Below are positions 36,765 to 64,000 of a stretch of 64,000 nt of DNA, in pieces. Under the pieces are notes generated by a model. That model searched no databases. It worked only from the letters and a program-made list of their open reading frames with translations, and was not told the DNA's origin. The stretch is from assembly GCF_014822185.1 (NCBI RefSeq), contig NZ_QVLR01000028.1:62001-126000 (forward strand). The letters run 5' to 3'. The translations under genes were made by a program, and so were the position numbers. Position 1 is the stretch's first letter. Every line of letters begins with the position of its first letter. This DNA is from Azoarcus sp. Aa7. Its GTDB lineage: Bacteria; Pseudomonadota; Gammaproteobacteria; Burkholderiales; Rhodocyclaceae.

Positions 36765-38630
36765 TCAGTACGAGTCGGCGTGCCCTTCCCACATCTCGGA
36801 CCTGAAGCGCACGACGCGATTGCGGCCATCATCCTTCGCGCGATAGAGGGCCACGTCCGCGAACTTCACGGTCTGCCAGAAGGTTTCGCTGTCTTCGGGG
36901 AACATCGCCAGACCGATCGAGATCGTCTTCTGCAGCACGGCGCCCCCGACCTGGATCTTCAGGTCCCCGACGGTCGCGCGGATGTTCTCGGCGACCCGCA
37001 GCGCATTCTCCGCCTCGGTTTCCTGCAGGACGATGAGGAACTCTTCCCCGCCGAAGCGGATGACCATGTCGGACGCCCGCACCGCGGTCCGCAGCACCGC
37101 GGCCAGCGATTTCAACACGGCGTCGCCGGCATCGTGGCCGTAGGTGTCGTTCACCATCTTGAAGTAGTCGATGTCCAGCACCAGGATCGCCAGCTCGATT
37201 TTGCGCCGGCGCGCCGTGGCGACCAGGGTGTCGACGTATTCCTCGAGGAAGCGGCGGTTGTTCAGGCCCGTCATCGCATCGCGCAGCGAGGACTCGCGCA
37301 GCGTCTCGGTCAGGCGCTTGGCCTCCAGGACCGGCGCCATCTCGCGCACATAGACGTTCACATACGGCACCTGGGCATGGAAGCGCGCGGCCTCCGATTC
37401 GCGCACGACGAGCTGGACGATGCTGCCCACTGCGCCGGATTGCATGATCGGCACGCAATAGTGGCGCCGCGGCTCCCCCGTATCGTCGGGCTGCTTGAAC
37501 GCGTAGCAGATGCCCGGTTGGGTCAGGCCATCGACGGTGTGGCCGGAGCGCTTGGCACGGCACATGTCGCTGCGCACGAGGATTTGCGGATCGCACCAGT
37601 GGCAGGGGCTGCCCTGCACGCCGTCCACCATGAAGGGTTCCAGCTGCTTCGGCCCGGAGGTCTCGTAGATGGAGAATTCGCGCACGCCGAACTGGTCGGT
37701 CAGCACGCGGCCGAAGCGGTCGAAGATCTCGGACTTGGTCTCGTCCTCCTCGATCGCCTGCTTGAAGCTGGACGCATCGGCCAGGCCGTTGACCATGTCG
37801 ATCGCGACCTCTAGCTGGTTGTCGTCCTGCCGCAGGGTGCGGCCGGTGAGCTGCACCACGCGCTGGCTGATGCGCGCGAGGCCGTCGTCGAGGAAGGTGA
37901 GCAGATTGTTGGTCTCGCTGGCGATCTGGCCGATCTCGTCATCGGTGCGCTTTTCCACGCGCCCCTTGAAGTCGCCCTTCAGCGCCCGCTGCACCGCCCG
38001 CTCCACCGCCTGCGCGGTCGAGCCGACCGGCAGGATCAGACGCCGGGCGAGAACAATGGAGAGCGCCGCGAACACCGCCATCGTGACGCTGATCCAGGTC
38101 ACGGTCGTGAGCGCCTTCTCCTTGAGCTCGGTCAGCGACAGCTCCATCGTGACGGCGCCGAGCACCATTCCCTCGCTGACCTTGTGGCACTGCAGGCAGT
38201 TCGGGGTGCCGCGCGACGACGCGGCGAACGGGATGGTGCCGCGGAATACCGAATCGCCTGCCTCATCGCGGATCTCGTAGCGGGGCTGGCCGTCGGCGAG
38301 CACGAGCTTCTCGATCTCGTCCGCGTTCATTTCGCGGTTCATGCCGGCGCCGAACTGTTCGTTCACGTACGTGGAACGCACGACCCGCGCGGTGCGCAAG
38401 CCCTGGACCTCGAGCAGGCGATTGAGGAACTGTTCGCGCTTGTCGATGACCCCCTGGATCATCGACTCGGTCAGATGTACGCGCACGATTTCCGCGGCCG
38501 TTCGCACGTGCGCGGTCGACGAGGCGATCGAATAGCTGCGGAAGGCATAAAGGCTGATCAGGATCAGCATCACCAGTGTGCCCACAGCGATGCCGCCGAA
38601 CAGCAGGGTCATCTTTCGATTCAGATTCAT
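36765..38630 (-). CDS. Membrane diguanylate cyclase with periplasmic haem-c motif and Cys-rich cytoplasmic sensor
   Basis: A 621-aa c-di-GMP synthase. Order: membrane helix 8-29; periplasmic sensor (about 30-173) with the covalent haem motif CLQCH at 145-149; membrane helix about 174-197; HAMP about 198-250; a GAF-like cytoplasmic domain (about 290-435); GGDEF domain (about 445-610) with active site GGEEF (527-531) and an intact inhibition site RASD (518-521). The GAF-like part carries five cysteines (343, 346, 357, 375, 392), an unusual set that could hold a metal centre. The layout suggests a redox, NO or O2 signal sensed outside and c-di-GMP made inside. It is divergent from the glutathione peroxidase gene. 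Confidence 0.9.
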   Translation of the reverse strand: MNLNRKMTLLFGGIAVGTLVMLILISLYAFRSYSIASSTAHVRTAAEIVRVHLTESMIQGVIDKREQFLNRLLEVQGLRTARVVRSTYVNEQFGAGMNREMNADEIEKLVLADGQPRYEIRDEAGDSVFRGTIPFAASSRGTPNCLQCHKVSEGMVLGAVTMELSLTELKEKALTTVTWISVTMAVFAALSIVLARRLILPVGSTAQAVERAVQRALKGDFKGRVEKRTDDEIGQIASETNNLLTFLDDGLARISQRVVQLTGRTLRQDDNQLEVAIDMVNGLADASSFKQAIEEDETKSEIFDRFGRVLTDQFGVREFSIYETSGPKQLEPFMVDGVQGSPCHWCDPQILVRSDMCRAKRSGHTVDGLTQPGICYAFKQPDDTGEPRRHYCVPIMQSGAVGSIVQLVVRESEAARFHAQVPYVNVYVREMAPVLEAKRLTETLRESSLRDAMTGLNNRRFLEEYVDTLVATARRRKIELAILVLDIDYFKMVNDTYGHDAGDAVLKSLAAVLRTAVRASDMVIRFGGEEFLIVLQETEAENALRVAENIRATVGDLKIQVGGAVLQKTISIGLAMFPEDSETFWQTVKFADVALYRAKDDGRNRVVRFRSEMWEGHADSY

Positions 38631-38824
38631 TCGGACTCCGGGGGTGCGCGCCTCCCCCGCTTGATTGTTTCGCCGGGGTGCAATTATGCCCTGAAAAGCT
38701 TTGTAACACCCGCCAACGGGGGACGTTCACATTTGCTCCTGGCATCGCCGGTGCGCGCTCGCGACGAACTCGAACCGGGCTTCGGGGTCTCACGCACACC
38801 CCAGCCCCCGACAGCGAGAAAACC

Positions 38825-39373
38825 ATGATCCGCGCACTCTCCGCAGCGGCGTGCGCCGCCCTGCTCCTTCCCCTCGGCGCGTCGGCGGCCGGCCCGGCCG
38901 ACGGCCTCGCCTACCTGGACCACACCCTGCGCCGACTGCACTCCGAAGAGGTCGTCAATCTGCGCCAGCGCTACGGCGGCAAGCCGCTGCTGATCGTCAA
39001 CACCGCCAGCCACTGCGGCTACACCGGACAGTTCAAGGCGCTCGAAGCGCTGCACCGGCAGTACAAGGAGCGCGGCCTCAAGGTCGTCGGATTCGCGTCG
39101 AACGATTTCCGCCAGGAAGCCGCGAACGAGGCGGAGGCCGCACAGGTATGCTTCGTGAATTACGGGGTGAGCTTCGACATGTTCGCGCCGATCGGCGTCA
39201 GCGGAGACGGCGCCCACGCGGTGTTCCGCGAACTCGCGCGGCAGTCGGGCGCGCCGCGCTGGAATTTCCACAAGTACGTGGTGGATCGCAACGGCAAGGT
39301 GATCGCGTCGTTCCCGAGCCGGGTCGAGCCGGATTCCCGGGAAGTGCGCGAGGCGATCGAACGCGCGCTGTAG
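38825..39373 (+). CDS. Exported glutathione peroxidase-family protein
   Basis: A 182-aa thiol peroxidase with a signal peptide (1-22, ending GASA). The peroxidatic Cys is in VNTASHCGYTGQFKALE, followed by FASNDFRQEA and the WNFHKYVVDRNGKV signature. The usual FxCNQF segment reads FASNDF, and a second Cys in AAQVCFVNYG may act as resolving cysteine, suggesting thioredoxin-like rather than glutathione-driven reduction in the periplasm. It is read away from the haem-c diguanylate cyclase; both could respond to oxidants, but that link is speculative. Confidence 0.88.
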   Translation: MIRALSAAACAALLLPLGASAAGPADGLAYLDHTLRRLHSEEVVNLRQRYGGKPLLIVNTASHCGYTGQFKALEALHRQYKERGLKVVGFASNDFRQEAANEAEAAQVCFVNYGVSFDMFAPIGVSGDGAHAVFRELARQSGAPRWNFHKYVVDRNGKVIASFPSRVEPDSREVREAIERAL

Positions 39374-39484
39374 GAAGCCACGGCCACGGTGCCCTGCCCC
39401 GCGGTCGATGACCGGGACGGGCAATCGTGACATCATCCCGCTCGCCGCGGGAACCGCCCGCACGCGACACCGCCGAGGCCGCCC

Positions 39485-40183
39485 ATGTCACCTTCCGCCG
39501 CACAGCTCGCCACCCTCGTCGCCGCGTGGACGCTGTACGGACTGATCCATTCGTTGCTGGCCTCGTTCGCGGCGAAGGGATTCGTCGCACGGCACTGGCC
39601 TGCCGCGGCGCGCGGCTACCGGCTGGCCTTCAACGCCATCGCGGCCCTGCTGCTCGTGCCGCCCGCGTGGCTCACCTTCGCGCTGCGCGGCCCGCTCCTG
39701 TGGGAATGGGCCGGCATCGGGGCGTGGGTCGCGAACGCCCTCGCGCTCGGGGCGCTGGCGGGTTTCGCGTGGACGACGCGCCATTACGACATGGGAAGCT
39801 TTTCGGGCTTGGCGCAGTGGCGCGCGGGTACCAATCCGCCGCAGCATGAAGAAGGACGCCTGCAGCTGTCGCCCCTGCACCGCATCGTGCGCCACCCGTG
39901 GTACTTCCTGGGCCTGCTGATCCTGTGGACGCGCGACATGGATGCGGCGCGGCTGACGTCCTCGCTATGCGTCACCGCCTACCTATGGATCGGCTCCCTG
40001 CTCGAGGAGCGCAAGCTCCTCGCCCTGCACGGCACGCCCTATGCCCGCTACCGCGCCGCCGTCGCCGGGCTGGTGCCCCTGCCGGGCCGGTTCCTCACGC
40101 GCGAACAGGCCGATGCGCTCCTCGCGGGAGGCGATTCCCTTGCCCGCAACAAGGCTTTCCGTAATGGGGGCAGGGGAGTATAG
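39485..40183 (+). CDS. NnrU / isoprenylcysteine-methyltransferase-like integral membrane protein
   Basis: A 232-aa protein with about five membrane helices (for example residues 7-27, 45-67, 73-97 and 135-165). The C-terminal part carries the PEMT/ICMT-type signature RHPWYFLGLLILW followed by EERKLLALHGTPYARYRAAV, which binds S-adenosylmethionine in methyltransferases of this fold. Related NnrU proteins occur in denitrifiers, but a substrate is not known. A GGAAATTTCC palindrome (40189-40198) follows the stop, ahead of the next gene. Confidence 0.75.
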   Translation: MSPSAAQLATLVAAWTLYGLIHSLLASFAAKGFVARHWPAAARGYRLAFNAIAALLLVPPAWLTFALRGPLLWEWAGIGAWVANALALGALAGFAWTTRHYDMGSFSGLAQWRAGTNPPQHEEGRLQLSPLHRIVRHPWYFLGLLILWTRDMDAARLTSSLCVTAYLWIGSLLEERKLLALHGTPYARYRAAVAGLVPLPGRFLTREQADALLAGGDSLARNKAFRNGGRGV

Positions 40184-40296
40184 TCCGCGGAAATTTCCTT
40201 TTTGTTACGCGTTCTTACACTTCCCCTCGGGCGTCAGACCGGTCCCCGGCGGTGGCCGCGTGCGGCGCCTGCGCGAGACCGGGATCGCCCCACGCA

Positions 40297-42867
40297 ATGA
40301 CTCCGATCAAGACCATCCGCGGACTCCTGCTGACTGCTGCCGTCGTCTTCTCGACGGCGCTCGCGGTCGCCACCCAGTACGTGGTCTCCAATCTCCACGA
40401 GCGCTCGATCCGCGAGGAGGCGATGCGCGACGCGAACACCTTTGCGGAAATGACTTTCCAGTCGATGTTCCAGCTGATGCGTACCGGCTGGACCCGCACG
40501 CAGCTCGAGGAATTCATCCGCGCGATCGAACGTTCGGTGGACAAGACCAAGCACCAGATCGCGATCTACCGGGCGCCGCGCGTCACCGAACTGTTCGGCG
40601 AGATCAAGCAGCGCGAGATGGATGCCGCGATCCTCGAGGTGATTGCGACCGGCGAGAGCCGCCGCATGGATCAGGGCCCGGAAGTGCGCTTCATCAACGC
40701 CCTGCGCGCCGAGGCCGAATGCCGGCAATGCCACACGAACGCGAAGCCCGGCGAAGTGCTGGGCGTCATCGACGTGCGCCAGGACATCCGGCCGCTCCTC
40801 GAGGCCGGCAACCGCCAGTTCATGTTCGCCTTCGCGCCGGTGGTGCCGGTGGCGATCGTGGCGACGCTGCTGATGGTGGTGTATATCCGCCGCCGGCTGG
40901 ACAAGGCGATAGCGGGCTTTGCGACGAACATACGCTCGATCAGCCGGCTTTCCGACCTGAAACAACTCGAAAACGCTTCGCTCGACTTCGGCTTCAGCGA
41001 ATTCAGCCCGGTCGTGACCGAGGTCAGGCAGCTCACCGAGCGCGTCCGCAGCGTGGCCGTCGACAAGGACATGCTCGAGTTCGAGATCCGTCTGCTGGAG
41101 AAATTCATCCTCACGTCCGACGTCGTCAAGGACTGGCGCGAGTATGTGAATCGCCTGCTCATCGACATCGACGGCGTGATGCCGGCCTACGCGCTGTTCT
41201 CGATCTTCAAGACCGGCGAGGACATCTTCGACCTCGAGGTGTTCTGGCGCTACGCGCCCTCGGCGGAGAGCCGGCAGCTGTTCGAGGAGACCGTGCGCGA
41301 ATCGCTGCGCCGCAACCCGTACTTCGCCGACGGCTACGCCGTGAGCATCGAGCACAACATCGCCGACAACTCGCGCAACGCGCCGGAGCTGGTGCGCTGC
41401 GACATCGAGGTGCAGACGAAATCCCTGCTGGTCGAGGCGCCCAAGATCGGCGGCATCGTCGGCATCGGCATGCAGGCCCAGGCCGGCACCGACGCGACGC
41501 GCTGGCTGGTGGTCGAGAGCATCCTGTCGACGCTGCTGAACGTGGTCGGCTCGGTGAAGGCGATCGACAAGTACACGAAGGACCTCGAGTACTACGCGAC
41601 GCGCGACCCGCTGACCAACCTCTACAACCAGCGCGTGTTCTGGGAACTGCTCGACAGCGAGGCCACGCGCTCGGGTCGTCACGGCTACAAGTTCGGGCTG
41701 CTGATGATCGACGCCGACAACTTCAAGTCGGTGAACGACACCTACGGCCACGGCTTCGGCGACGTGTTCCTGCAGGAGGTCGCGACGACCATCCGTCGCG
41801 CGATCCGCGAGGATGACCTGCTCGCGCGCTACGGCGGCGACGAGTTCGTCGCGATCCTGCCCGAGACCGACCTCGCCGGCACCATCGAGGTCGCCCAGCG
41901 CATCATCGACGCCGTGACCTCGCTGGCGATCGAGACGCCCGACGGTGCACACGTAAGCGGCTCGCTATCGGTCGGCATGGCGACCTATCCCGACCACGCC
42001 ATCGAGACCAAGGACCTGTTCCTGTTCGCCGACAGCATGATGTATCGCGCCAAGGCCGACGGCAAAGGCCGGGTGGCGATCCCCACCGAGCAGGACGTCG
42101 TCGAGGTGTTCCGCTCGCTGTCCGAGAAGAGCATGCTGATCCTCGCGGCGGTCGAGGCGCGCGGGGTGATCCCCTACTACCAGCCGATCATCGACCCGAA
42201 GACGGGCAAGGTCGAGGCGCTGGAAGTGCTGGCGCGCATCCGCCTCGACGACGGCTCGATCCTCGTTGCCGACGCCTTCGTCGCGATCGCCGAGAAGATG
42301 GGCCTGATGCACAAGCTCGACTACATCCTGATGGAGCGCGCGCTCGAGGCCGCAACCGCGGCCGATTACCAGGGCCTGCTGTTCCTCAACATGTCGCCAC
42401 GTGCGCTGGTACTGAACGATTTCGTGCAGGAGACGCGGCGCATCGCCGCCGAATCGGGCTTCGACCCCTCGCGCATCGTGTTCGAGATCACCGAGCGCGA
42501 GACGATCAAGAACATGGCGCTGCTCGAGCGCTTCATCAACACCTTGCGGGGCGAAGGCTTCCGTCTCGCGATCGACGACTTCGGCTCGGGCTTCTCGTCC
42601 TTCCACTACGTGAAGCGCTTCCCGATCGACTTCCTGAAGATCGAAGGCGACTTCATCCTCGGTATGAAGCACAACGACAAGGATCGCGCGCTGGTGCGCA
42701 GCATCGTCGCGCTCGCGCGCGAGCTGGGCATCCGCACCGTGGCCGAGTATGTCGAAGACGCGGAAGTGCTCGACAAAGTCGTCGCCCAGTCGATCGATCT
42801 CGCGCAGGGCTATCACATCCAGCGCCCGACGCCATCCATCGAACAGGCCATTGGCATCGGCACCTGA
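40297..42867 (+). CDS. Membrane GGDEF-EAL (EVL) c-di-GMP enzyme with periplasmic haem-c motif
   Basis: An 856-aa dual-domain protein. Order: membrane helix about 8-30; periplasmic sensor with CRQCH at 142-146; membrane helix about 175-196; linker and a GAF-like domain (about 255-425); GGDEF domain (about 430-590) with active-site GGDEF (513-517) and inhibition motif REDD (504-507); C-terminal EAL-type phosphodiesterase (about 615-850). The EAL signature is EVL (EVLAR), a variant, but the other catalytic motifs are present: LNMSP, FEITERE, DDFGSGFSS and FLKIEGDFI. Both activities are therefore possible. The sensor matches those of the genes at 36765 and 62644 in layout. Confidence 0.9.
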   Translation: MTPIKTIRGLLLTAAVVFSTALAVATQYVVSNLHERSIREEAMRDANTFAEMTFQSMFQLMRTGWTRTQLEEFIRAIERSVDKTKHQIAIYRAPRVTELFGEIKQREMDAAILEVIATGESRRMDQGPEVRFINALRAEAECRQCHTNAKPGEVLGVIDVRQDIRPLLEAGNRQFMFAFAPVVPVAIVATLLMVVYIRRRLDKAIAGFATNIRSISRLSDLKQLENASLDFGFSEFSPVVTEVRQLTERVRSVAVDKDMLEFEIRLLEKFILTSDVVKDWREYVNRLLIDIDGVMPAYALFSIFKTGEDIFDLEVFWRYAPSAESRQLFEETVRESLRRNPYFADGYAVSIEHNIADNSRNAPELVRCDIEVQTKSLLVEAPKIGGIVGIGMQAQAGTDATRWLVVESILSTLLNVVGSVKAIDKYTKDLEYYATRDPLTNLYNQRVFWELLDSEATRSGRHGYKFGLLMIDADNFKSVNDTYGHGFGDVFLQEVATTIRRAIREDDLLARYGGDEFVAILPETDLAGTIEVAQRIIDAVTSLAIETPDGAHVSGSLSVGMATYPDHAIETKDLFLFADSMMYRAKADGKGRVAIPTEQDVVEVFRSLSEKSMLILAAVEARGVIPYYQPIIDPKTGKVEALEVLARIRLDDGSILVADAFVAIAEKMGLMHKLDYILMERALEAATAADYQGLLFLNMSPRALVLNDFVQETRRIAAESGFDPSRIVFEITERETIKNMALLERFINTLRGEGFRLAIDDFGSGFSSFHYVKRFPIDFLKIEGDFILGMKHNDKDRALVRSIVALARELGIRTVAEYVEDAEVLDKVVAQSIDLAQGYHIQRPTPSIEQAIGIGT

Positions 42868-42965
42868 GCCCTGCGCATTTACAATTCGTTATGCTTCCCG
42901 GAACCCCTAGCGGGCGGACACGCTCAAAATAGGGCAGTTCGCTCTTTTCAACCCAGGAGGCAATA

Positions 42966-43658
42966 ATGAAAAAAACATTGATCGTCACGGCCCTGTCGAT
43001 CCTGACGGTCGCAGGGTGTGCGCAGAATCCGTTCTACGGCGAACATGCTCAGACCACCCGCGGAGCGGCCATCGGCGCCGGCGCCGGCGCGATCCTCGGC
43101 AACGTCGTCGCCGGTTCGGGCAACCGCACGACGGGCGGCCTGGTGGGCGCCGCGATCGGCGCGACCGTCGGCGGTCTGGTCGGCCGCCAGATGGACAAGC
43201 AGGAAGCCGAGTTGCGCCAGCAGATGGCCGGCACCGGCGTGCAGGTGCAGCGCCAGGGCGACACGATCCGCCTGCAGGCGCCCGAGAACATCACCTTCGA
43301 CACCGGCCGCGCCGATGTGAAGCCGCAGTTCCAGCCGGTGCTGTCGCGCCTGTCGCAGAGCATCCAGCAATACCCCGACACCATCGTGCAGATCGAGGGC
43401 CACACCGACTCGACCGGCGCGGCGAGCATGAACCAGACGCTGTCCGAGAACCGCGCCGATTCCGTGCGCACCTACATGGCCCAGCGCGGCGTGGAGTCGA
43501 ACCGGCTGATCGCCGTCGGCTACGGCGCATCGCGACCGGTCGCCGACAACGGCACGCCGCAGGGACGCGCCCAGAACCGCCGCGTCGAAGTGCTGATCGT
43601 GCCCGCACAGGCCCAACAGCCCGGCGCAATGCAGCCGGCCCCCGGCCCCCGCTACTGA
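42966..43658 (+). CDS. OmpA-family lipoprotein with glycine-zipper segment (YiaD-like)
   Basis: An outer-membrane lipoprotein of 230 aa. The lipobox is LTVAGC (Cys18). A glycine-zipper region (about 33-75; GAAIGAGAGAILGN and GGLVGAAIGATVGGLVG) probably inserts in the membrane. The C-terminal OmpA domain (about 105-215) binds peptidoglycan: NITFDTGRADVKP, QIEGHTDSTGA, NRADSVRTYMAQRGV and NRRVEVLIVPA. An excellent Shine-Dalgarno AGGAGG lies 5 nt before the ATG. It probably tethers outer membrane to cell wall. Confidence 0.92.
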   Translation: MKKTLIVTALSILTVAGCAQNPFYGEHAQTTRGAAIGAGAGAILGNVVAGSGNRTTGGLVGAAIGATVGGLVGRQMDKQEAELRQQMAGTGVQVQRQGDTIRLQAPENITFDTGRADVKPQFQPVLSRLSQSIQQYPDTIVQIEGHTDSTGAASMNQTLSENRADSVRTYMAQRGVESNRLIAVGYGASRPVADNGTPQGRAQNRRVEVLIVPAQAQQPGAMQPAPGPRY

Positions 43659-43675
43659 TCGCAGCGGCCTCCTGC

Positions 43676-43720
43676 AGCCCCGCCCTGCCCGCGGCAGCCA
43701 TGCCCGGGCGCGGCGGGGCT
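43676..43720 (+). terminator. Possible terminator after the OmpA lipoprotein gene
   Basis: A 9-bp stem AGCCCCGCC/GGCGGGGCT with a long 27-nt loop and TT directly after. The stem is strong but the T-run is short. Confidence 0.5.
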
Positions 43721-43774
43721 TTCGTTATCGCCCCGCGGTCGCTAACCTAGCGCGTCCAACCCCATTGCCGCGCC

Positions 43775-45064
43775 ATGCCCCTGTTCGACGAATATCCGCT
43801 CCGCCACAAACTGAACGACGAAGTCCACGCGCGGCCCCCGGTCACGCTGGAAACGCCGGAGTTCGTCACCTACCTCGCCTTCCTGCACGTCGACGGCAGC
43901 GCCGAACGCGAAGCCGATCACCTGCGCCTGCTCGCCGAACAGTTCGAACTGCCGCCGCCTGACACCTCCTCCGGGCACGTCTTCCTCGATGCCGGCGGCT
44001 TCCGCCTGAAGTGGGAACGCCACAACGAATTCACCAGCTACACCTTCGTGCGCCGCATCGACTTCAGCGGCACGAGCGACGACAACCCGCTGCTCGACGT
44101 GCCGGCCGCGTGGCGGCGCGAGATCCCCGGCCAGTTGCTGGTCGCCACGCACATCGAGCTGCGCGGCGTCGATGAGGTCGCCCCTGAGACGGTGCTCGCA
44201 CAGCTGACGCCGACGGGCACGACCTCGGTCGCATCGCAAATCGCCGACGGCGCGGGCTGGGTGTTCACGGACTTCCAGATCGCCGACGGCTTCTCGCGCT
44301 TCCTCGTCCTCGACGCCTCGCTGACCCCGCGCCAGGCGGGGCGCACGGTGCAGCGCCTGCTCGAGATCGAGACCTACCGCGTGATGGCCCTGCTCGCCTT
44401 CCCGGTCGCGAAGGAGGTCAGCCGGCTGCTCGCCCTCGCGGAGGACGAGCTGGCCGACCTGATGGACGCGATGAGCGCGGCGACCTCGCCCGAGGACGAA
44501 CGCCAGGTGCTCGGCCGCCTGACGCGGCTCGCGGCGCACGTCGAACGTTCGGTCGCCCGCACGACCTACCGCTTCGGCGCCGCGGCCGCCTATTACCGGC
44601 TGGTGCGCCAGCGCATCGACGACCTGCGCGAGGTGCGCGTCAAGGGTTACCCGCCGGTACGCGAATTCATGGAGCGGCGCCTGACGCCGGCGATCGACAC
44701 CTGTGCGACAGTCGCGCGGCGGCAGGAGGACCTGTCGAGCCGCATCGTGCGCAACTCGCAGCTGCTGCGCACGCGCGTGGAGATCGAGCTCGAACGCCAG
44801 AATCAGGAGCTGCTCGGCCAGATGAACCGCCGCGCGAAACTGCAGCTGCGCCTGCAGGAAACGGTGGAAGGCCTGTCGGTGGTCGCGATCACGTATTACG
44901 CCTCGCAGCTCGTGCAATACCTCGCCAAGGGCGCGAAGGACTACATCCATCCGGCCACACCCGAGGTCGTCACGGCGGTGTCGATCCCGCTGATCGCCGG
45001 CCTGGTCGCCTTGGGGCTGCGCCGCATGCACCGCCAGCTCGCTGCAGAGGAAGGCGGTCATTGA
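43775..45064 (+). CDS. DUF3422 family protein
   Basis: A 429-aa uncharacterised membrane-anchored protein. Family features are the N-terminal [12 protein letters not shown], a cytoplasmic beta-rich domain ([18 protein letters not shown]), a long helical middle, and two hydrophobic helices at the C-terminus (about 370-392, [14 protein letters not shown], and about 400-418, [14 protein letters not shown]). The topology resembles a tail-anchored sensor or scaffold. The function is unknown. Its last codons and stop lie in a 12-bp tandem repeat just ahead of the purC promoter. Confidence 0.85.
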
Positions 45065-45088
45065 GGTGGCCATTGAGGTGGCCATTGA
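45053..45088. repeat. Three-copy 12-bp tandem repeat at the DUF3422 stop codon
   Basis: The unit GGTGGCCATTGA is present as two perfect copies (45065-45076, 45077-45088) and one copy with two differences (45053-45064). The stop codon of the DUF3422 gene is the TGA of the first copy, so the stop is present three times in the same frame. Confidence 0.9.
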
Positions 45089-45113
45089 GGGGTAGCCGGC
45101 ACCCAAGCTGTCC

Positions 45114-45119
45114 TATAAT
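45114..45119 (+). promoter_or_regulatory. Perfect -10 TATAAT of purC
   Basis: TATAAT with 28 bp to the GTG start of purC. No good -35 at 16-18 bp. Confidence 0.55.
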
Positions 45120-45147
45120 TGCGCTTTGCCCTGAAAGAGTTTCCATC

Positions 45148-46083: not shown

Positions 46084-46102
46084 GCACGTAGCGCCCCCTC
46101 CG

Positions 46103-46147
46103 AGGCCCGCCCTTCCCGGCACACTGCCGGGGATGGCGGGCCTTTCC
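46103..46147 (+). terminator. Terminator after purC
   Basis: An outer stem AGGCCCGCC/GGCGGGCCT (46103-46111 and 46135-46143) encloses an inner stem CCCGGCA/TGCCGGG (46115-46121 and 46125-46131); it ends in TTT. The rest of the 228-bp gap to the next gene holds no feature I recognise. Confidence 0.75.
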
Positions 46148-46311
46148 ACGTCCCTCGCCCGCCGGTTACGGGAACGAAGTCGCAGGCTTGCCGCGAAGTG
46201 GGTGAACTTGCCCGACCCCGGCCGCTCTAACACTCCACCCGGGGGCTATTCCCATCGCGGCCACGCCGGACGGAGCCGCCCCCTGGTACTTCCAACCCCA
46301 AGGAGGCTGCC

Positions 46312-52445: not shown

Positions 52446-52473
52446 GTCGTTTACGGCTCGGAGTCCTCCCGAA

Positions 52474-53390: not shown

Positions 53391-53426
53391 GGGTCGACCG
53401 GCACTCAGGTTCAAAGAATCCGGCGT

Positions 53427-54413: not shown

Positions 54414-54419
54414 GCCGGC

Positions 54420-55739: not shown

Positions 55740-55768
55740 GTTCTGTCGTGGTGTGGATGTTGGGGCGC

Positions 55769-58198
55769 TCATTCGGCGCCGAAAACGCGATCGGAAACGG
55801 GATCGTTGATCTTCCCATAACCGGCGACGCTGCGTTTGAGCAGATTGACCGGGCTGGTGCCCACGCTCGCGAGGTCGTTGAGCTCGAGCTGCACGAACAC
55901 GGCCTGGGTCACGTCATTGGGGTCGGTCGCGAAGCGGTGCACCGCGGTGCGCACGACCCAGCAGCCGCCATCGTACTCGATGCCCGCGATCGCCTCGGTG
56001 ATGCGGTCTTCCGTCAGCGAGCGCGTCACGCGCCCGACACCGTACCATCCGCCGCCCAGCGGCCACTGGCCGGACAGCGCGAGATCCTGGACCTTGTCGC
56101 TCTCATCGGCGAGCCGGCCGCGCGAATAGCGGTAGGAGAGATTCAGTGCCTTGGCGAAATCCGGCTGGAAGCGCACGCCGACGTTGAATCGTTCGGTCCA
56201 GTTGTCGCGCGGGTTGTACTGCAGGGTCGAATCGAGCCAGGTCTTCGGCATCACGTAGCCGCTGAAGAGGCCGAGGACGTCGGCGCGGCGGCCGGTGCGC
56301 GGCTCCTCGCCGGGCAGCGTCACGCGCTGGTCGTCGAAGTAGAAGCGCTGGCCGACGGTCGCGCGCAGGCGTTCGCCGCCGGATTGGGGGTCGATCAGGC
56401 GCGTGGTCACCGCCGCCGTCACCTGGTTCGCATCGGCGATGCGGTCGCCGCCGGAGTACTGGTTCTCGGAGAAGATCTGCGCAAGGCCGAAGTCGTAGCG
56501 CGACGAATCGAACACCGGAATGTCGGTCTGGTCGCGGAACGGCGTCTTGACGTAGAACACGCGCGGCTCCAGCGTCTGCAGGAAGTCGCGGCCGAACAGA
56601 TTGGCATCGCGCTCGAAAAACAGGCCGCTGTCTACGGAGAAGATCGGCACCGAGCGCATGATCGAGCGGCTGTTGCCGGTCAGGTCGCGGTCGAGGTCGT
56701 ACTGCGTGTAATGCAGGCCGAACTTGGGCGTGACGTAATAACCGGCGCGCTCGAAGGGCAGCGACACCTGCGGATGGAGCGTGAAGCGGCTGCCTTCGGC
56801 AACATTCGAGTCCGGATGGTCGAACTGCACGTATTCGCCGCGGAACGCGAAGGCCGAACCGCCGATCAGCTCGCCGCGGTTGGCGTTCAGCAGCAGCTGC
56901 GGCAGCTTGCGGTACGGCTCGCCGCCCGACAGGGTCTGGTAGCTCTGCACCAGCGCGGAGGCGTTCCACCACTCGCTGCCGGCATAGCTGAGCGTGCCCT
57001 TGCGCACGAGGTTCGCGCGCGAGGCGACCGACACGCGCGAGCTGAGGTCCTCGAAATACTCCTTGTCGGTGACGCCGTTCCAGTCGATCGCCGCGAACAG
57101 GCTCGGGGTGATGACCTGCGTATGCTGGAAGGACCCCAGCGCACGCTCCTCGCCGGTGACGTTGTCGCGCGGCAGGTATTCGACGCGCGCCTCGCCGCCC
57201 TGCGTCGGCGTCAGGTAACGGAATTCGGTCGCCAGCTGCACGCCGCGGCGGCCCATGATGCGCGGGGCGATCGTCGCGTCGTAGTTCGGCGCGATGTTCC
57301 AGTAGTACGGCACCGAGATGTCGAGACCGACCTTGTTCGACATGCCGAAGGTCGGCGCGAGGAAGCCGGACTGGCGCTGGCCGACGAGCGGGAACTCCGC
57401 CCACGGCCACCACAGCATCGGCACGTCCTGGAACACCAGGCTCGCGCCCTGCGCGGTGCCGAGTTCGCGGTCGTAGTCGAGACGCAGGTCGCTCGCCTTC
57501 AGGTACCAGTCGGGATCGCTCGCCTCGCAGGTCGACCAGGTCGCGTTCTTCAGGCGGTACTGGTTCTCGCCCTCGAAATACAGCACATCGGCCGAACCGC
57601 CCCCGGCGACCTCGCGCGGCGTCTCGCCCGGCTGCACCGGCGCGGTCGACTGGCGCTTGATGCGGTAGGTCGGCGAGTCGAACGAGCCCAGACGCTCCTC
57701 GAGCTTGAGCCGCGCCTCCGGTCCGCTGATGCTGTCCTCGCCGCGCTTGAGCCGCACATTGCCCTCGGCATGCGCCTCATCGTCGAGCTCGCGGTAGCTC
57801 AGCTTGTCCGCGGAAAGCAGCAGGTCGTCGCGCTGCAATTCGGCATCGCCTTCCGCCAGGAGTTCGACGGAGCGCGTGCCGCGGATGCTCCGGGCACGCA
57901 CCTCGGTCGAACCCGGCGGCAATGCGGCAGTCGCCTGCGCGGGCACCTTCGCAGCCGGCGTCGGAGTCGCGGCGGCGGGCGCCGGCGCAGGCGCCTTCGC
58001 TGCCGGACGAGTGCCGCCCGCGGGCTGCGCGGACTCCGCCGGAGCCGCCGCGGGCGCAGGCTTCGCCGGTGCACGGGGGCTACCGCCGCCGAGCAGGTCC
58101 GGCGACACGACCAGCGGCGGCAGTCCGGCCGCCAGGGTCGAGCCCGAGAAACAGCACAGCAGCAGCGGGATCGCCCGTAGCTGCGTTCTCAATCGCAT
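55769..58198 (-). CDS. lptD: LPS-assembly protein LptD
   Basis: The outer-membrane barrel that inserts lipopolysaccharide at the cell surface with LptE. The product is 809 aa: signal peptide 1-23, an unusual Ala/Pro-rich linker (about 38-97), a periplasmic OstA/LptA-like domain (about 98-235; LLAEGDAELQRDDLLLSAD, EGNVRLKRGEDSISG) and the C-terminal barrel. Only one cysteine is seen in each conserved region (STCEASDPDW and GGCWVVR), whereas E. coli has two pairs, so one interdomain disulfide is expected. The ATG at 58198 lacks a clear Shine-Dalgarno. It is divergent from amgK. Confidence 0.93.
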   Translation of the reverse strand: MRLRTQLRAIPLLLCCFSGSTLAAGLPPLVVSPDLLGGGSPRAPAKPAPAAAPAESAQPAGGTRPAAKAPAPAPAAATPTPAAKVPAQATAALPPGSTEVRARSIRGTRSVELLAEGDAELQRDDLLLSADKLSYRELDDEAHAEGNVRLKRGEDSISGPEARLKLEERLGSFDSPTYRIKRQSTAPVQPGETPREVAGGGSADVLYFEGENQYRLKNATWSTCEASDPDWYLKASDLRLDYDRELGTAQGASLVFQDVPMLWWPWAEFPLVGQRQSGFLAPTFGMSNKVGLDISVPYYWNIAPNYDATIAPRIMGRRGVQLATEFRYLTPTQGGEARVEYLPRDNVTGEERALGSFQHTQVITPSLFAAIDWNGVTDKEYFEDLSSRVSVASRANLVRKGTLSYAGSEWWNASALVQSYQTLSGGEPYRKLPQLLLNANRGELIGGSAFAFRGEYVQFDHPDSNVAEGSRFTLHPQVSLPFERAGYYVTPKFGLHYTQYDLDRDLTGNSRSIMRSVPIFSVDSGLFFERDANLFGRDFLQTLEPRVFYVKTPFRDQTDIPVFDSSRYDFGLAQIFSENQYSGGDRIADANQVTAAVTTRLIDPQSGGERLRATVGQRFYFDDQRVTLPGEEPRTGRRADVLGLFSGYVMPKTWLDSTLQYNPRDNWTERFNVGVRFQPDFAKALNLSYRYSRGRLADESDKVQDLALSGQWPLGGGWYGVGRVTRSLTEDRITEAIAGIEYDGGCWVVRTAVHRFATDPNDVTQAVFVQLELNDLASVGTSPVNLLKRSVAGYGKINDPVSDRVFGAE

Positions 58199-58312
58199 AT
58201 CGCGCAAAGCGCTTTCCCCAATCCTGGTTTCATCGCCGGCGACCCGTGCCCGGCACGGTCCCGGCCTTTTGATAAACTCGCGGATTTTACACGAAGCGTT
58301 GCGGAGAACCCG

Positions 58313-59317
58313 GTGCACAGACTTGCCCAACTGAACGACTGGCTGACCACCCGAATGTCCGGAAAGGCCTTCGAGCTGACGCCCGCATCGGCCGACGCCA
58401 GCTTCCGTCGCTATTTCCGCGTGAACTTCGCCGACGGCAGCCCCAGCCTGATCGTCATGGACGCCCCGCCCGAGCGCGAGGACTGCCGCCCCTGGCTCAA
58501 GGTCGAGGAGCTGTTCCGCGCCGCCGGCGCACACGTCCCGGAAGTGCTCGCGCAGGACCTCGACCAGGGCCTCCTGCTGCTCTCCGACCTCGGCAGCACG
58601 ACCTACCTCGCCGCGCTGAACAAGGACAACGCCGCCCATCTCTACGCCGACGCCCTCGGTTCGCTGATCGCGATCCAGCGCGCGAGCCGCCCCGACGTGC
58701 TGCCCGAATACTCGCGCGAACTGCTGCTGCGCGAACTGATGCTGTTCCCCGAGTGGTACATCGAGCGCCACAAGGGCGTCACCCTCGACGACCGCCAGCG
58801 CGTCACCCTGATGGACACCTTCGACCGCATCCTCGCGGTGAACCTCGCCGAGCCGCAGGTCTTTGTGCACCGCGACTACCACTCGCGCAACCTGATGTAC
58901 CTCCCGGACCAGGCCAACCCCGGCATCATCGACTTTCAGGATGCCGTGTACGGCCCGCTCACCTACGACCTCGCCTCGCTGTTCAAGGACGCCTACATCC
59001 ACTGGGAAGAGGACTTCACCCTCGACATGCTCGCGCGCTACTGGGAAGCGGCGCGCAAGCTGGGCCTGCCGGTGCGGGAGGACTTCTCGGATTTCCACCG
59101 CGACTACGAATGGATGGGCGTGCAACGCCACATCAAGGTGCTGGGCATCTTCGCGCGCCTGTATCACCGCGACGGCAAGGACGGCTACCTCGCCGACATG
59201 CCGCTGGTGATGGACTACCTGCGCCGCGCATGCAAGCGCTACCGCGACCTCGGGCCGCTGCTGAAGCTGCTCGACCGCCTCGACCCCGAGCCGGTCGAAG
59301 TCGGCTACACCTTCTGA
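58313..59317 (+). CDS. amgK: N-acetylmuramate/N-acetylglucosamine kinase AmgK
   Basis: A phosphotransferase of the aminoglycoside-kinase fold, 334 aa, that phosphorylates the anomeric carbon of MurNAc and GlcNAc in the cell-wall recycling shortcut to UDP-MurNAc. The catalytic loop is [11 protein letters not shown] and the Mg loop [11 protein letters not shown]. The start is a GTG with GGAG 7 nt upstream. It overlaps murU (TGATG), and the pair beside lptD-surA matches the arrangement in Pseudomonas. This pathway bypasses MurA and gives fosfomycin tolerance in known cases. Confidence 0.9.
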
Positions 59318-60006
59318 TGCACGCGATGATCCTCGCCGCCGGGCGCGGCGAACGCATGCGCCCGCTGACGGACGCCTGTCCCAAACCGCTGCTGCAGGCG
59401 GGCGGCAAGCCGCTGATCGTGTGGCACATCGAGCGCCTGCGCGACGCCGGCTTCACCGACATCGCGATCAACCACGCCCACCTCGGCGCGATGATCGAGG
59501 CCGCCCTCGGCGACGGCAGCGCCTTCGGCGTGCGCATCCGCTACTCGCCCGAGGCCGAGGCGCTGGAAACCGCCGGCGGCATCCGCCAGGCGATGCCGCT
59601 GCTCGGCGATGCACCCTTCCTGGTGGTGAATGGCGACGTGTTCTGCGACGCCGACCTCGCGGCCCTGCGCGCCCGTGGCGCCGCGCTCCCGGCCGACGGC
59701 GACCTCGCCCACCTGCTGATGGTGCCCAATCCCGAACACCATCCCGACGGGGATTTCCACCTTGCCGACGGACGCCTGCAGCGGAACGGCGAGCCGCGCC
59801 TGACCTTCTCGGGCATCGGCGTGTACCACCCCGCCCTCTTCGCGGGCATCGCGGCGGGTACGCGCGCCGCGCTCGGGCCGCTGCTGCGCGAAGCGATGGA
59901 CGCCGGGCGCGTCGGTGGTACGCCGCATGACGGCTACTGGCTCGACGTCGGCACGCCCGCACGGCTGGCCGAACTCGACGCCCGGCTGCGGCGGGCCGGC
60001 ACCTGA
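59317..60006 (+). CDS. murU: N-acetylmuramate alpha-1-phosphate uridylyltransferase MurU
   Basis: A sugar-nucleotide transferase of 229 aa. The signature [20 protein letters not shown] is followed by the metal-site Asp in VVNGDVFCD and by [13 protein letters not shown]. It converts MurNAc 1-phosphate and UTP to UDP-MurNAc. The ATG overlaps the amgK stop. Generic glucose-1-phosphate thymidylyltransferase-like function is the alternative, but the amgK partner favours MurU. Confidence 0.9.
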
Positions 60007-60063
60007 ACGCGCCCCCGCAGGTCCGGTCGAATCCGACACCAGCGCACATGCCATAATCCGCCG

Positions 60064-61416
60064 ATGAATACGCCCTCCGACCGCTCCACGCTCGACGTCG
60101 CCCCCTTCCGCGCCCGCCGCGAGCGCCTGCTCGCCCGCATGAACGCACTCGGCGGCGGCGTCGCCGTCGTGCCGACCGCCCCGGAATACGCGCGCAATCG
60201 CGACACGCACTACCCGTTCCGCTACGACAGCTACTTCCACTACCTCACCGGCTTCGGCGAGCCCGAGGCGGTGGTGGTGCTGATCGCCGGCGACACGCCG
60301 AAATCGATCCTGTTCTGCCGCGAGAAGAACGAGGAGCGCGAGATCTGGGACGGTTACCGCTACGGCCCCGACGCCGCGCGCGAGCGCTTCGGCTTCGACG
60401 AAGCCTGGACCATCGGCGAGCTCGACCAGCGCCTGCCCGACCTCCTGTCCGGACGAGCCGCGCTGTGGTGCAGCCTCGGCCACGACAGCGACTGGGATGC
60501 CCGCGTGCTGCGCGCACTCAACACCGTGCGCGCGAATGCCCGCGCCGGCGCGATCCCGCCGCACGCGATCCGCGACGTGCGCGCCGAACTCGACGAGATG
60601 CGCATCCTCAAGGACGCCTCCGAAATCGCGATCATGCGCCGCGCCGGCGACATCTCCGGCGAAGCCCACCGCCGCGCGATGGCCGCGACCCGCCCCGGCC
60701 GCTTCGAGTACGAGATCGAGGCCGAACTGATCCATCATTTCCGCCGCGCCGGCAGCCAGGCCCCCGCCTACCCGTCCATCGTCGCCAGCGGCGCCAACGC
60801 CTGCGTGCTGCACTACGTCGAGAACGAGCGCCAGATGCGCGACGGCGACCTGTTGCTGATCGACGCCGGCTGCGAACTCGACGGCTACGCCTCCGACATT
60901 ACCCGCAGCTTCCCCGTGAACGGCCGCTTCAGCGGCCCCCAGCGCGACATCTACGAACTCGTGCTCGCCGCCCAGACGGCCGCGAAGGCCACGATCCGTC
61001 CCGGCGCGCACTGGAACATGCCGCACGACGCCGCCGTCGAAGTCCTCGCGCAGGGCATGCTCGACCTCAAGCTCCTTTCCGGCAGCCTCGCCGAAGTCCT
61101 CGAACAGGGCCACTACCGCCGCTTCTACATGCACCGCACCGGCCACTGGCTCGGGCGCGACGTGCACGACGCGGGCGAATACAAGCTCGCCGGCGAGTGG
61201 CGGCCGCTGGCACCGGGCATGGTGCTGACGGTCGAGCCGGGCTGCTACATCCGCCCCGCCGAAGGCGTGCCGGAAGCGTTCTGGAACATCGGCGTGCGCA
61301 TCGAGGACGACGCGCTGGTCACCGAAGACGGCTGCGAATACATCACCGAAGCGGCGCCGCGCTCGGTCGCCGACATCGAGGACGTCATGCGCGAGGCCGC
61401 CGATGGCGCAGCATGA
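60064..61416 (+). CDS. pepP: Xaa-Pro aminopeptidase
   Basis: A dinuclear metal peptidase (M24B, 450 aa) that removes N-terminal residues preceding proline. The metal ligands are in LLIDAGCELDGYASDITRS (two Asp), HRTGHWLGRDVHD (His), TVEPGCYIRP (Glu) and VRIEDDALV (Glu). An N-terminal creatinase-like domain (about 1-170) has RYDSYFHYLTGF. It overlaps ubiH by 14 bp, as pepP-ubiH in E. coli. Confidence 0.95.
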   Translation: MNTPSDRSTLDVAPFRARRERLLARMNALGGGVAVVPTAPEYARNRDTHYPFRYDSYFHYLTGFGEPEAVVVLIAGDTPKSILFCREKNEEREIWDGYRYGPDAARERFGFDEAWTIGELDQRLPDLLSGRAALWCSLGHDSDWDARVLRALNTVRANARAGAIPPHAIRDVRAELDEMRILKDASEIAIMRRAGDISGEAHRRAMAATRPGRFEYEIEAELIHHFRRAGSQAPAYPSIVASGANACVLHYVENERQMRDGDLLLIDAGCELDGYASDITRSFPVNGRFSGPQRDIYELVLAAQTAAKATIRPGAHWNMPHDAAVEVLAQGMLDLKLLSGSLAEVLEQGHYRRFYMHRTGHWLGRDVHDAGEYKLAGEWRPLAPGMVLTVEPGCYIRPAEGVPEAFWNIGVRIEDDALVTEDGCEYITEAAPRSVADIEDVMREAADGAA

Positions 61417-62560
61417 CCTGCTGATCGTCGGCGCCGGCCCGGTCGGCCTGTCGCTCGCCCTCGCGCTCAAGGACAGCGGCCTCGCGATCACGCTGGCCGA
61501 CACGCGTCCGCGCGACGCCGTCGCCGCCGATCCGCGCGCGCTCGCGCTGGCCCACGGCTCGCGCCTGACGCTGGAGCGGCTCGGCGTGTGGCACGAACTG
61601 CCGGCCACGCCGATCCGCCACATCCACGTGTCGCAACAGGGCGGCTTCGGCCGCACCCGGCTCGAGGCCGACGACTACGGCCTGCCCGCGCTCGGCTACG
61701 TCGTCCGGGCAGGCGCCCTGGCCGACGCCCTGCGCAACGCCGTCGAGCGCGCCGGCATCACGGTCATGGACCAGACCGAGGTGTCGGACCTGGCCGCGGG
61801 CTCCGACTCGGTGACGGCCAGCCTCGCCGGCAGCGGCACCGCCATCCATGGCGCCACCACCAGCGCCCGCCTCGTCGCCTGTGCCGAAGGTGGCCTGCAG
61901 GCCGGCGCACCGGACATCGTCGAGCGCGACTACGGCCAGCACGCACTGATTGCCCACGTGGGCATCGCCGGCCGCCACGGCGACACCGCCTTCGAGCGCT
62001 TCACGAGCGAGGGACCGATCGCGCTGCTGCCCCACGGCGACGAGTACGCGCTGGTGCATGTAGTCTCCCCCGCCCGTGCCACCGAACTCCTGGCCCTGCC
62101 CGACGCCGCCTACCTCGAACACCTCCAGCGCCGCTTCGGTAGCCGCGTGCAACTCGCGCGCGTCGCCGGGCGACTGCGCTACCCGCTGGTGCTGCGCTAC
62201 CGGACCGATCCGGTCGGCCAGCGCACCGTGTGGCTCGGCAATGCCGCCCAGACCCTGCACCCGGTCGCCGGCCAGGGCTTCAATCTCGCACTGCGCGACG
62301 TGTGGGCGCTCGCCCGCACCCTCCTCGACCATGGCGGCGACCCCGGCCTCGCCGGCACGCTCGCCGCCTGGCGCGATGCCCGCCGGCTCGACCGCTTCGG
62401 CGCGATCAACTTCACCGACGGCCTCGTGCGCATCTTCAGCAACGACTTCGCCCCCCTGCACCACGCGCGCGGCGCCGCCCTGTTCGCGCTCGACATGCTT
62501 CCGCCGCTGCGCCACTTCCTCGCCCGCCGCATGATGTTCGGCGCCCGCGCCTGGCCGTGA
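61403..62560 (+). CDS. ubiH: UbiH-type FAD-dependent ubiquinone-biosynthesis hydroxylase
   Basis: A flavin monooxygenase of 385 aa that hydroxylates the ubiquinone ring. FAD motifs are LLIVGAGPVGLSLALAL at the N-terminus and WLGNAAQTLHPVAGQGFN (the GNAAQ form typical of UbiH) at about 275-292. The hydrophobic C-terminal region fits membrane association. The ATG overlaps pepP by 14 bp with translational coupling likely. VisC/UbiI and UbiF are close relatives, but GNAAQ and the pepP context favour UbiH. Confidence 0.92.
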   Translation: MAQHDLLIVGAGPVGLSLALALKDSGLAITLADTRPRDAVAADPRALALAHGSRLTLERLGVWHELPATPIRHIHVSQQGGFGRTRLEADDYGLPALGYVVRAGALADALRNAVERAGITVMDQTEVSDLAAGSDSVTASLAGSGTAIHGATTSARLVACAEGGLQAGAPDIVERDYGQHALIAHVGIAGRHGDTAFERFTSEGPIALLPHGDEYALVHVVSPARATELLALPDAAYLEHLQRRFGSRVQLARVAGRLRYPLVLRYRTDPVGQRTVWLGNAAQTLHPVAGQGFNLALRDVWALARTLLDHGGDPGLAGTLAAWRDARRLDRFGAINFTDGLVRIFSNDFAPLHHARGAALFALDMLPPLRHFLARRMMFGARAWP

Positions 62561-62643
62561 CACGCACGGCGCCGGCCCCGCCGGCAATCGGCCGTTCGTT
62601 ATATGATTGCGGCCGGACAATCCTGGCGCCAACGTTCCATCAC

Positions 62644-64000
62644 ATGAACAAGAACATGCGGATTCGCTACAAAATCACCCTCGCGGTCGGCGTTGCAGTC
62701 ACGGTCGTGCTCGTGGCGATGGCGTTCTTCTACACGCACTTCCAGGAACAGTCGGTCCTGAGCCAGAACGAACGCACGATGGAAAAGCTCACCGAAAGCG
62801 TGGCCCAGGGCCTGCAGGCGGTGATGCTGGCGGGTTCCGCGGACATCGCCGAATCCTATGCGGACCGTCTGAAGAAGGTCACCGACATCCTCGACTTCCG
62901 CATCCTGCGCACCAACGGCGACGAAGCCTTCCGCGACAACAAGACCATCCACGACGTGAACCGCCGCCGCGGCGAGGAGACCTTCACGCCGCGCGATCAC
63001 GAGCAGCAGATCCCCGTGCTGCCGGCCGACGACGCCAACCTGCTCGCAACGGTCGGCGAAGGCCGCACGCTTGCGATCTACGAACCCGGCCTGGACGGCC
63101 ACCGCAACCTGACCTTTCTCGCCCCGATCAAGTACATCGACGCCTGCAGCAAATGCCACGGCGCCGCGAACAGGGTACGTGGCGTGATCAAGCTGACGAC
63201 CTCGCTTGCCGCCGTCGAACGAGACATCTACGAGGTGCGCCAGTACGCGATCGGCGGCCTCGCCCTGGCGCTGATGGCGACCATGCTGCTCACCGGCTAC
63301 ATGCTCGGGCGCACCATCGTCGAGCCGCTCGAGAAGGTCACCCACGCGATGTCCCGCGTGTCCGACGGCGACCTCGATCACCAGGTGCCGATCCACAGCC
63401 GCGACGAAATCGGCACGATGGCCAACAGCTTCAACCGCATGACCTCGGAGCTGAGAACGACGTACGACGGCCTGCGGCGCGAACAGGACAAACTCACGAC
63501 CATCATCCACGGGGCTGGCGAAGGCATTGTCGTCACCGACAGCACAGGCGAAATCGTACTGGTCAACCCCGCCGCCGAACGCCTGCTCGAAAAGCCGGCG
63601 AGCCAGATCGTCAGGGAAGGCTTCTACGCACTCCTCGACGACGAGGAGCAGATGCGCCTGTGGCTGTCCGATCCCGAGCAGGGCGGCGCGATCACGACGG
63701 CCTACAAGGAGCGCGTCCTGCAGATCTTCGCCTCTACGATTTTCGGCAACGACCACAACGTCGTCGGGTCGGCCGCGCTGCTGCGCGACATCACCGAGGA
63801 AAAGCGCCTCGAGGACGAACTGCGCCGGCTCTCGACCACCGACGGACTCACCGGCCTGTTCAACCGCCGCCACCTCGACGCCACGCTGGACACCGAATAC
63901 AACCGCGCACAGCGCACCGGCACCTCGCTCGCGGTGCTGATGTTCGATATCGACCATTTCAAGAAATTCAACGACACGCACGGCCACGACCAGGGCGACC
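62644..64000 (+). CDS. Membrane PAS-GGDEF protein with periplasmic haem-c motif (3' cut by window edge)
   Basis: The first 452 residues of a putative diguanylate cyclase. Order: membrane helix 11-30; periplasmic sensor (about 31-200) with CSKCH at 168-172; membrane helix about 201-220; HAMP about 220-270; PAS domain (about 283-385; GIVVTDSTGEIVLVNPAAE); start of the GGDEF domain (DGLTGLFNRRHLDATLD, FDIDHFKKFNDTHGHDQGD). The active-site GGDEF and any EAL domain lie beyond the window. The ATG at 62644 has no clear Shine-Dalgarno; an ATG at 62656 is also possible. Its sensor architecture matches the genes at 36765 and 40297. Confidence 0.88.
   Translation, partial: MNKNMRIRYKITLAVGVAVTVVLVAMAFFYTHFQEQSVLSQNERTMEKLTESVAQGLQAVMLAGSADIAESYADRLKKVTDILDFRILRTNGDEAFRDNKTIHDVNRRRGEETFTPRDHEQQIPVLPADDANLLATVGEGRTLAIYEPGLDGHRNLTFLAPIKYIDACSKCHGAANRVRGVIKLTTSLAAVERDIYEVRQYAIGGLALALMATMLLTGYMLGRTIVEPLEKVTHAMSRVSDGDLDHQVPIHSRDEIGTMANSFNRMTSELRTTYDGLRREQDKLTTIIHGAGEGIVVTDSTGEIVLVNPAAERLLEKPASQIVREGFYALLDDEEQMRLWLSDPEQGGAITTAYKERVLQIFASTIFGNDHNVVGSAALLRDITEEKRLEDELRRLSTTDGLTGLFNRRHLDATLDTEYNRAQRTGTSLAVLMFDIDHFKKFNDTHGHDQGD

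Follow-up and report, generated by a model that had tools for sequence, protein, structure and literature searches.

A predicted haem-c Cache sensor shared by three cyclic di-GMP enzymes of Azoarcus sp. Aa7 and excised in frame from some orthologues

The 64,000 nt stretch of the Azoarcus sp. Aa7 genome analysed here (contig NZ_QVLR01000028.1, positions 62,001 to 126,000; hereafter the window) encodes three enzymes of cyclic di-GMP (c-di-GMP) turnover, designated P0001, P0002 and P0003, each with two transmembrane helices (TM1 and TM2) flanking a periplasmic domain that contains one CxxCH motif. As judged by comparison of profiles and folds, the three domains form one distant family with the sensors of the haem-c chemoreceptors GSU0582 and GSU0935, and it seems probable that each protein is an inner-membrane c-di-GMP enzyme with a periplasmic haem-Cache domain that alters the output through the release of a Met from its haem. 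From the orthologues it appears that this domain has been excised in frame, with the enzyme kept, at least twice. The general idea of a haem-c Cache domain on c-di-GMP enzymes is already known: a 2026 preprint by Deshpande et al. defined the sCache_heme domain (DUF3365/Tll0287-like, PF11845) and described its fusions to chemoreceptor, kinase and GGDEF/EAL outputs, and NO (nitric oxide) binding by one signalling-type member (PMC12889525). The available portions of that preprint report neither an assay of a GGDEF/EAL fusion nor a natural loss of the domain. The three genes and their sensor features are as follows.

36765..38630, minus strand: P0001, 621 aa; TM-haem Cache-TM-HAMP-Cys-rich GAF-GGEEF diguanylate cyclase
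38103..38549, minus strand: P0001 predicted periplasmic haem-Cache domain (aa 28-176), from profile comparison, model and fold search
38184..38198, minus strand: P0001 predicted haem-c site CLQCH (aa 145-149), invariant in 33/33
38460..38462, minus strand: P0001 Met57, predicted distal haem ligand, in 33/33 and 29/29 rows; its match to GSU0935 Met60 runs via the P0003 domain
40297..42867, plus strand: P0002, 856 aa; TM-haem Cache-TM-conserved linker-GGDEF-EAL
40372..40824, plus strand: P0002 predicted periplasmic haem-Cache domain (aa 26-176), from profile match and model
40720..40734, plus strand: P0002 predicted haem-c site CRQCH (aa 142-146), 30/30
40477..40479, plus strand: P0002 Met61, predicted distal haem ligand, 28/30
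62644..64000, plus strand: P0003, 452 aa in the window and 573 aa in full (the window end cuts the gene); TM-haem Cache-TM-HAMP-PAS-GGEEF
62731..63249, plus strand: P0003 predicted periplasmic haem-Cache domain (aa 30-202), exceeding the cut-off of Pfam PF21563
63145..63159, plus strand: P0003 predicted haem-c site CSKCH (aa 168-172), 16/16
62824..62826, plus strand: P0003 Met61, aligned with GSU0935 Met60, 16/16

The first-pass annotation had described all three open reading frames (ORFs) as helix-periplasmic domain-helix proteins with one CxxCH shortly before the second helix, and this layout is borne out; the His lies 28, 31 and 31 residues ahead of the helix peak in P0001, P0002 and P0003, respectively. 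From amino acid composition, a chance CxxCH would be expected ~0.0001-0.001 times per protein, and the motif is invariant in the alignments of all three sensors. For the P0001-type, this count covers 33 proteins (>90 bits and >460 aa, cut loci excluded), and the alignments contain 31 and 29 of these 33 rows, with near-identical rows excluded. The 30-row P0002-type alignment excludes two excised orthologues, a split copy in genome G072 and one duplicate locus, and that of the chemoreceptors excludes L094.

Profile-profile comparison of the sensors gave probabilities of 99.0% for P0001/P0002, 97.8% for P0001/P0003 and 97.3% for P0002/P0003, and of 98.4, 96.9 and 95.8%, respectively, with the membrane helices removed; the best of 60 column-shuffled control comparisons reached 6.1%. 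On removal of the part that contains the CxxCH, P0001/P0002 and P0001/P0003 fall to ~88%, and P0002 and P0003 are then bridged by the chemoreceptor sensors (96.3 and 94.6%). The P0001 sensor is far closer to the chemoreceptor sensors (hhalign probability 100%, E 1.9e-49) than to those of P0002 and P0003, so a local triplication of the sensor is ruled out and the module is an old and wide family, present on many outputs and serving chemoreceptors too. The three domains also show homology to three crystallised haem-c proteins.

In AlphaFold models, the periplasmic domains of P0001 and P0002 each form a single Cache-type fold between the two membrane helices, in which the loop from strand three to strand four contains the CxxCH (P0001, strands 126-136 and 156-165 around residues 145-149; P0002, strands 129-137 and 154-163 around residues 142-146); for P0003, the fold assignment comes from PF21563 and profile comparison only. 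The later strand of each pair is the last periplasmic beta strand and corresponds to the hydrophobic G-[AV]-[IV] segment noted in the first-pass annotation. The P0002 model was compared by VIA-align, which for the P0001 model mainly tests residues 265-445, the periplasmic part of P0001 being placed by Foldseek. The proposal of a shared sensor module thus stands: the three segments are related by profile search, two have been modelled as Cache-type folds, and neither unrelated folds nor a poorly conserved CxxCH was found. P0003 passes the Pfam model PF21563 (Mcp40H-20_sensor, the GSU0582 type) with 36.0 bits against a cut-off of 27, and at E <= 0.01 this model recognises 14/30 P0002-type and 2/29 P0001-type members; P0001 and P0002 themselves do not match it at the limits used. 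None of the three reaches the PF11845 cut-off, with no match to this model listed for P0001 or P0003, and they are therefore filed only in the wider superfamily and not in that Pfam family.

His144 ligates the haem of GSU0935, and in one of the two protomers so does Met60, which binds the reduced haem, is lost on oxidation and is displaced by NO or CO (PMC8396549); this model of redox and ligand switching predates the 2026 preprint (PMC8396549, PMC3460858). We placed Met60 as the first Met of 'YMMKG', using the His144 numbering of the review. In the alignments this residue corresponds to P0003 Met61, via the matching GSU0582 residue to P0002 Met61, and via P0003 Met61 to P0001 Met57, so that all three proteins have a Met at the Met60 position, where it would act as in GSU0935-type His/Met ligation. 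This helix Met is located three residues before a Gly and is kept in 29/29 P0001-type, 28/30 P0002-type and 16/16 P0003-type sequences. Given its conservation and its alignment with Met60, the likely mechanism is a switch of His/Met ligation in response to redox or NO. The fold, being that of ligand-binding Cache domains, would also be consistent with a haem that is structural and a Cache pocket that binds some small molecule, as in other Cache domains, but this is rather improbable, as the predicted distal Met is conserved as strongly as the CxxCH and the haem of relatives binds NO and CO (PMC8396549). Covalent haem is itself predicted from the motif, the homology and the presence of cytochrome c maturation (Ccm) genes. 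The haem of the three proteins being a prediction from sequence and models, the CxxCH could in principle form a metal or disulphide site instead; we regard this as scarcely credible in view of the periplasmic placement, the cytochrome c assembly genes, the homology to the three crystallised proteins and the conserved Met on the far side.

Reasoning from these relatives, we propose that haem c would be attached via the CxxCH, with His149 (P0001), His146 (P0002) and His172 (P0003) as the proximal ligands, and that the long first helix would provide the distal ligand, Met57, Met61 and Met61, respectively. Oxidation of the haem, or binding of NO, would release the Met and so change how TM1 packs on the sheet and on TM2. 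From there the signal would travel to the cytoplasmic dimer, via HAMP in P0001 and P0003 and via the continuation of the TM2 helix in P0002, and, with a sign that we can only suppose, alter the activity of the GGDEF (and EAL) domains. In the AlphaFold models the Met-bearing helix runs on unbroken from TM1 (residues 3-59 in P0001, 3-62 in P0002), which suggests a route by which loss of the ligand could be communicated to the membrane. In P0001, the Cys-rich GAF domain may add a further input from the cytoplasm.

Reports on relatives favour NO or redox over O2 as the signal, and a redox- and NO-sensitive His/Met switch is likely. Sensing of O2, as by DosC/DosP or globin-coupled cyclases, has a precedent of sorts in the Desulfovibrio protein DcrA, a chemoreceptor with periplasmic haem c that is described as sensing both redox potential and oxygen (PMC8396549). 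It is nevertheless very unlikely here, as haem c with a Met ligand is poorly suited to O2 and the sCache_heme proteins that have been tested oxidise and form no stable O2 complex, one of them, the relative from P. azotoformans, holding NO tightly (PMC12889525). A pure sensor of redox, or redox stress, in which the haem would read how oxidising or reducing the periplasm is, with gas ligands irrelevant in the cell, is a more serious contender, well within the possible if short of our preference. The potentials of GSU0582 and GSU0935 are -156 and -251 mV, and both undergo a spin switch coupled to redox (PMC8396549), P0001 is adjoined by a glutathione-peroxidase-like gene, and the P0001-type sensor shows no co-occurrence with nitrite reductase at the genus level, as documented below. 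The one signalling-type member that was recently tested, however, holds NO as known NO sensors do (PMC12889525), and sensitivity to redox and to NO are compatible with each other.

Several results weigh against a redox- and NO-sensitive haem-Cache switch, or against the family relationship on which it is based. With NO from denitrification as the signal, sensor and nitrite reductase should co-occur. Among 68 genera of the family (with cut-offs of our choice, E<1e-25 for the P0001-type, E<1e-50 for the P0002-type linker and E<1e-100 for NirS), NirS or NirK is present in 12/17 genera with and 35/51 without a P0001-type sensor (odds ratio 1.1, p 1.0). For the P0002-type, the fractions are 18/20 and 29/48 (odds ratio 5.9, p 0.02, with no correction for phylogeny or for two tests), a weak tie only. 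NirK was above cut-off in 12/150 genomes. All 17 Aromatoleum genomes have NirS (E<1e-150), including the five (G004, G006, G007, G008 and G011) that have neither P0001 nor P0003, and so the idea that loss of the sensor marks lost denitrification is ruled out. Without the CxxCH part, the direct P0002/P0003 comparison gives 5.8%, that is, no direct similarity, and GSU0935 matches the P0002 model over just 70 residues, as would be expected from its domain-swapped crystal. The P0001 sensor has no Pfam match, the best PF21563 match in the P0001-type members has an E of 0.0055, and its profile retrieved no significant match from the PDB (best E 0.047, a designed protein); P0002 falls below the PF11845 cut-off (15.6 bits, or 17.6 with the sensor alone, versus 24.1). 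Finally, the open-licence literature yielded no assay of a haem-c Cache c-di-GMP enzyme with its haem.

The loss of the haem domain was traced in orthologues identified by their cytoplasmic half, with the sensor kept outside the query. The P0002 segment concerned is:

40480..40824, plus strand: P0002 segment aa 62-176 (or 61-175, the joint being a Met codon), 115 codons, missing in frame from the G008 (A. anaerobium) and G011 orthologues

There are 40 strong P0002-type copies (E<1e-50) in 36/150 genomes; 37 have a CxxCH sensor in the same ORF, two (G008 and G011) do not, and one (G072) is split. The two sensor-less proteins align gap-free with residues 1-61 and 174-854 (69-72% and 84% identity, respectively), are one residue longer at the C-terminus, and retain TM1, a stub of helix, TM2 and the complete output. 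Of 32 named loci that contain the P0002 linker, one, that of A. anaerobium, is without the sensor, and another (L169) is truncated at its contig start. For the P0001 cytoplasmic domain, 24 copies were found in 22/101 genomes, 23 with the sensor and one without. This one, in G039, a single-contig genome of another genus, lacks ~124 codons in frame at the same place, with the rest 62% identical, and G039 also has a second, intact P0001-type copy. Loss of the entire module has thus occurred no fewer than two times.

That such orthologues are decaying genes or assembly errors is unlikely, even though the G008 assembly is a draft, the gene is missing altogether from the three close relatives G004, G006 and G007, and a transposase-like ORF interrupts the copy in G072. 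The in-frame joint is shared by two genomes, the cytoplasmic half of the G008/G011 proteins remains under constraint, with a dN/dS (ratio of non-synonymous to synonymous substitution rates) of 0.126 over 602 codons, as compared with 0.106 and 0.086 for intact pairs, their GGDEF and EAL motifs are kept, and the G039 deletion is in frame within a single-contig genome. In a tree of LptD from 17 genomes, G008 and G011 fall in one clade with G004, G006 and G007 (100/100). This clade has neither P0001 nor P0003, and its last three members also have no P0002; G012 and G015, outside the clade, are missing only P0003. No report of sensor-domain loss in cyclases was found in the open-licence literature. 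In G072, the sensor is a separate ORF of 265 aa with the motif CLACH (L278:1-6001), ~3 kb from the output, and the ORF between was named transposase-like by eye. A further P0003-type sensor copy, at G005:C21:89473-90126 (plus strand), has an internal TAA stop.

The outputs differ as the first-pass annotation had proposed, namely GGEEF, GGDEF plus EAL, and PAS-GGEEF, although the GGEEF motif of P0003 falls past the end of the window. All three have an RxxD I-site and GG[DE]EF, and from these motifs would be active diguanylate cyclases, P0002 also having those of an EAL phosphodiesterase. The P0001 HAMP scores 20.5 bits, under the Pfam cut-off of 25. The cytoplasmic features in the window are:

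37296..37805, minus strand: P0001 cytoplasmic GAF domain (aa 276-445), GAF fold
37455..37604, minus strand: P0001 Cys-rich GAF insertion, C343, C346, C357, H364, C375 and C392, each in 29-32 of 33
36816..37286, minus strand: P0001 GGEEF domain, I-site RASD, by motif and Pfam
40894..41586, plus strand: P0002 cytoplasmic linker domain (aa 200-430), query of the output-first searches
41596..42069, plus strand: P0002 GGDEF domain, I-site REDD, by motif and Pfam
42145..42828, plus strand: P0002 EAL domain with EVLAR, LNMS, EITE, DDFGSG, KIE, AEYVE and QGY, by motif and Pfam

The linker of P0001 has a GAF fold with a Cys5/His motif that is kept in nearly all relatives, being absent from 2/31 (L098 and L099, which have other outputs). 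The Cys-rich segment has no Pfam match and no significant sequence match in the PDB (best E 0.14), and a literature search for Cys-rich or Fe-S GAF cyclases returned nothing relevant. The insertion may be a further metal or thiol sensor, on the cytoplasmic side. More tentatively, P0001 might be a redox integrator of two compartments, in which haem Cache and Cys5/His GAF gate one cyclase so that c-di-GMP synthesis would require agreement between the two sides of the membrane, and the haem module a plug-in, removed whole at least two independent times to leave enzymes ruled from the cytoplasm as natural controls. In a comparison of P0001 with at least 5000 plasmid records, none of the matches listed spans 80% of the query at a single site, and the ten matches listed start at residue 167 or later.

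The repeated sensor with swapped outputs that the first-pass annotation had recognised holds for the three enzymes but is not confined to them, as at least four more haem-Cache proteins, making at least seven in all, are encoded elsewhere in the genome. L001 is a fourth haem-Cache cyclase (CLECH), L002 is a stand-alone secreted haem-Cache protein (CLNCH), and L093 (CTECH) and L094 (CVECH) are haem-Cache chemoreceptors. NirS and cytochrome c assembly genes are also present. Between P0001 and P0002 lie a gene for a secreted-looking glutathione-peroxidase-like protein (38813-39373, plus strand; PF00255), which is missing from the 8 kb read at the P0002 loci in both G008 and G011, and one for a membrane protein (39485-40183, plus strand) with a sub-threshold match to the methanethiol S-methyltransferase MddA (53 bits versus a cut-off of 270) and no Pfam match at E <= 0.001. 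On its other side, P0001 is adjoined by an ORF (36026-36709, plus strand) for a 227 aa protein with no match in Pfam (E <= 0.001) or NCBIfam (E <= 0.01). At 14403-15386 (plus strand), an open frame of 328 aa contains two CxxCH and perhaps encodes a dihaem cytochrome.

Haem-c Cache domains have so far been studied on chemoreceptor-type or isolated proteins, and in the open-licence literature we found no enzyme activity read out through one; the accessible text of a review of c-di-GMP sensing does not mention 'c-type' (PMC8846402). P0001 and P0002 offer such an enzyme readout, with the A. anaerobium P0002 orthologue as a control missing the haem domain alone. As far as the literature was searched, the in-frame excisions, the Met signature in three subfamilies overlooked by the Pfam Tll0287 model, and the Cys-rich GAF are new. 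Should the Cys-rich GAF hold a metal or cluster, a single c-di-GMP switch would combine redox inputs from periplasm and cytoplasm in bacteria that denitrify and degrade aromatic compounds.

As compared with sCache_heme, L001 and L002 of this genome exceed the PF11845 cut-off whereas P0001, P0002 and P0003 do not, and these three have a Met in place of the Cys ligand found in stand-alone proteins of the Tll0287 type. With GSU0582 and GSU0935 (PF21563; PDB 3B47 and 3B42) they share the CxxCH and the Met60 position; P0003 belongs to that family by the Pfam cut-off, P0002 and P0001 are more distant relatives, and the output is c-di-GMP turnover rather than chemotaxis. The GAF domain of P0001 differs from that of free methionine-R-sulfoxide reductase (3MMH, 3KSF) in the added Cys5/His insertion of ~50 residues. 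The extracytoplasmic Cache domains of WalK/YycG, CitA and DcuS are alike in fold and, to our knowledge, bind no haem. Haem control of c-di-GMP is common to DosC/DosP and the globin-coupled or H-NOX-linked enzymes, but these are cytoplasmic with non-covalent haem, whereas P0001, P0002 and P0003 are predicted to have periplasmic haem c in a Cache fold.

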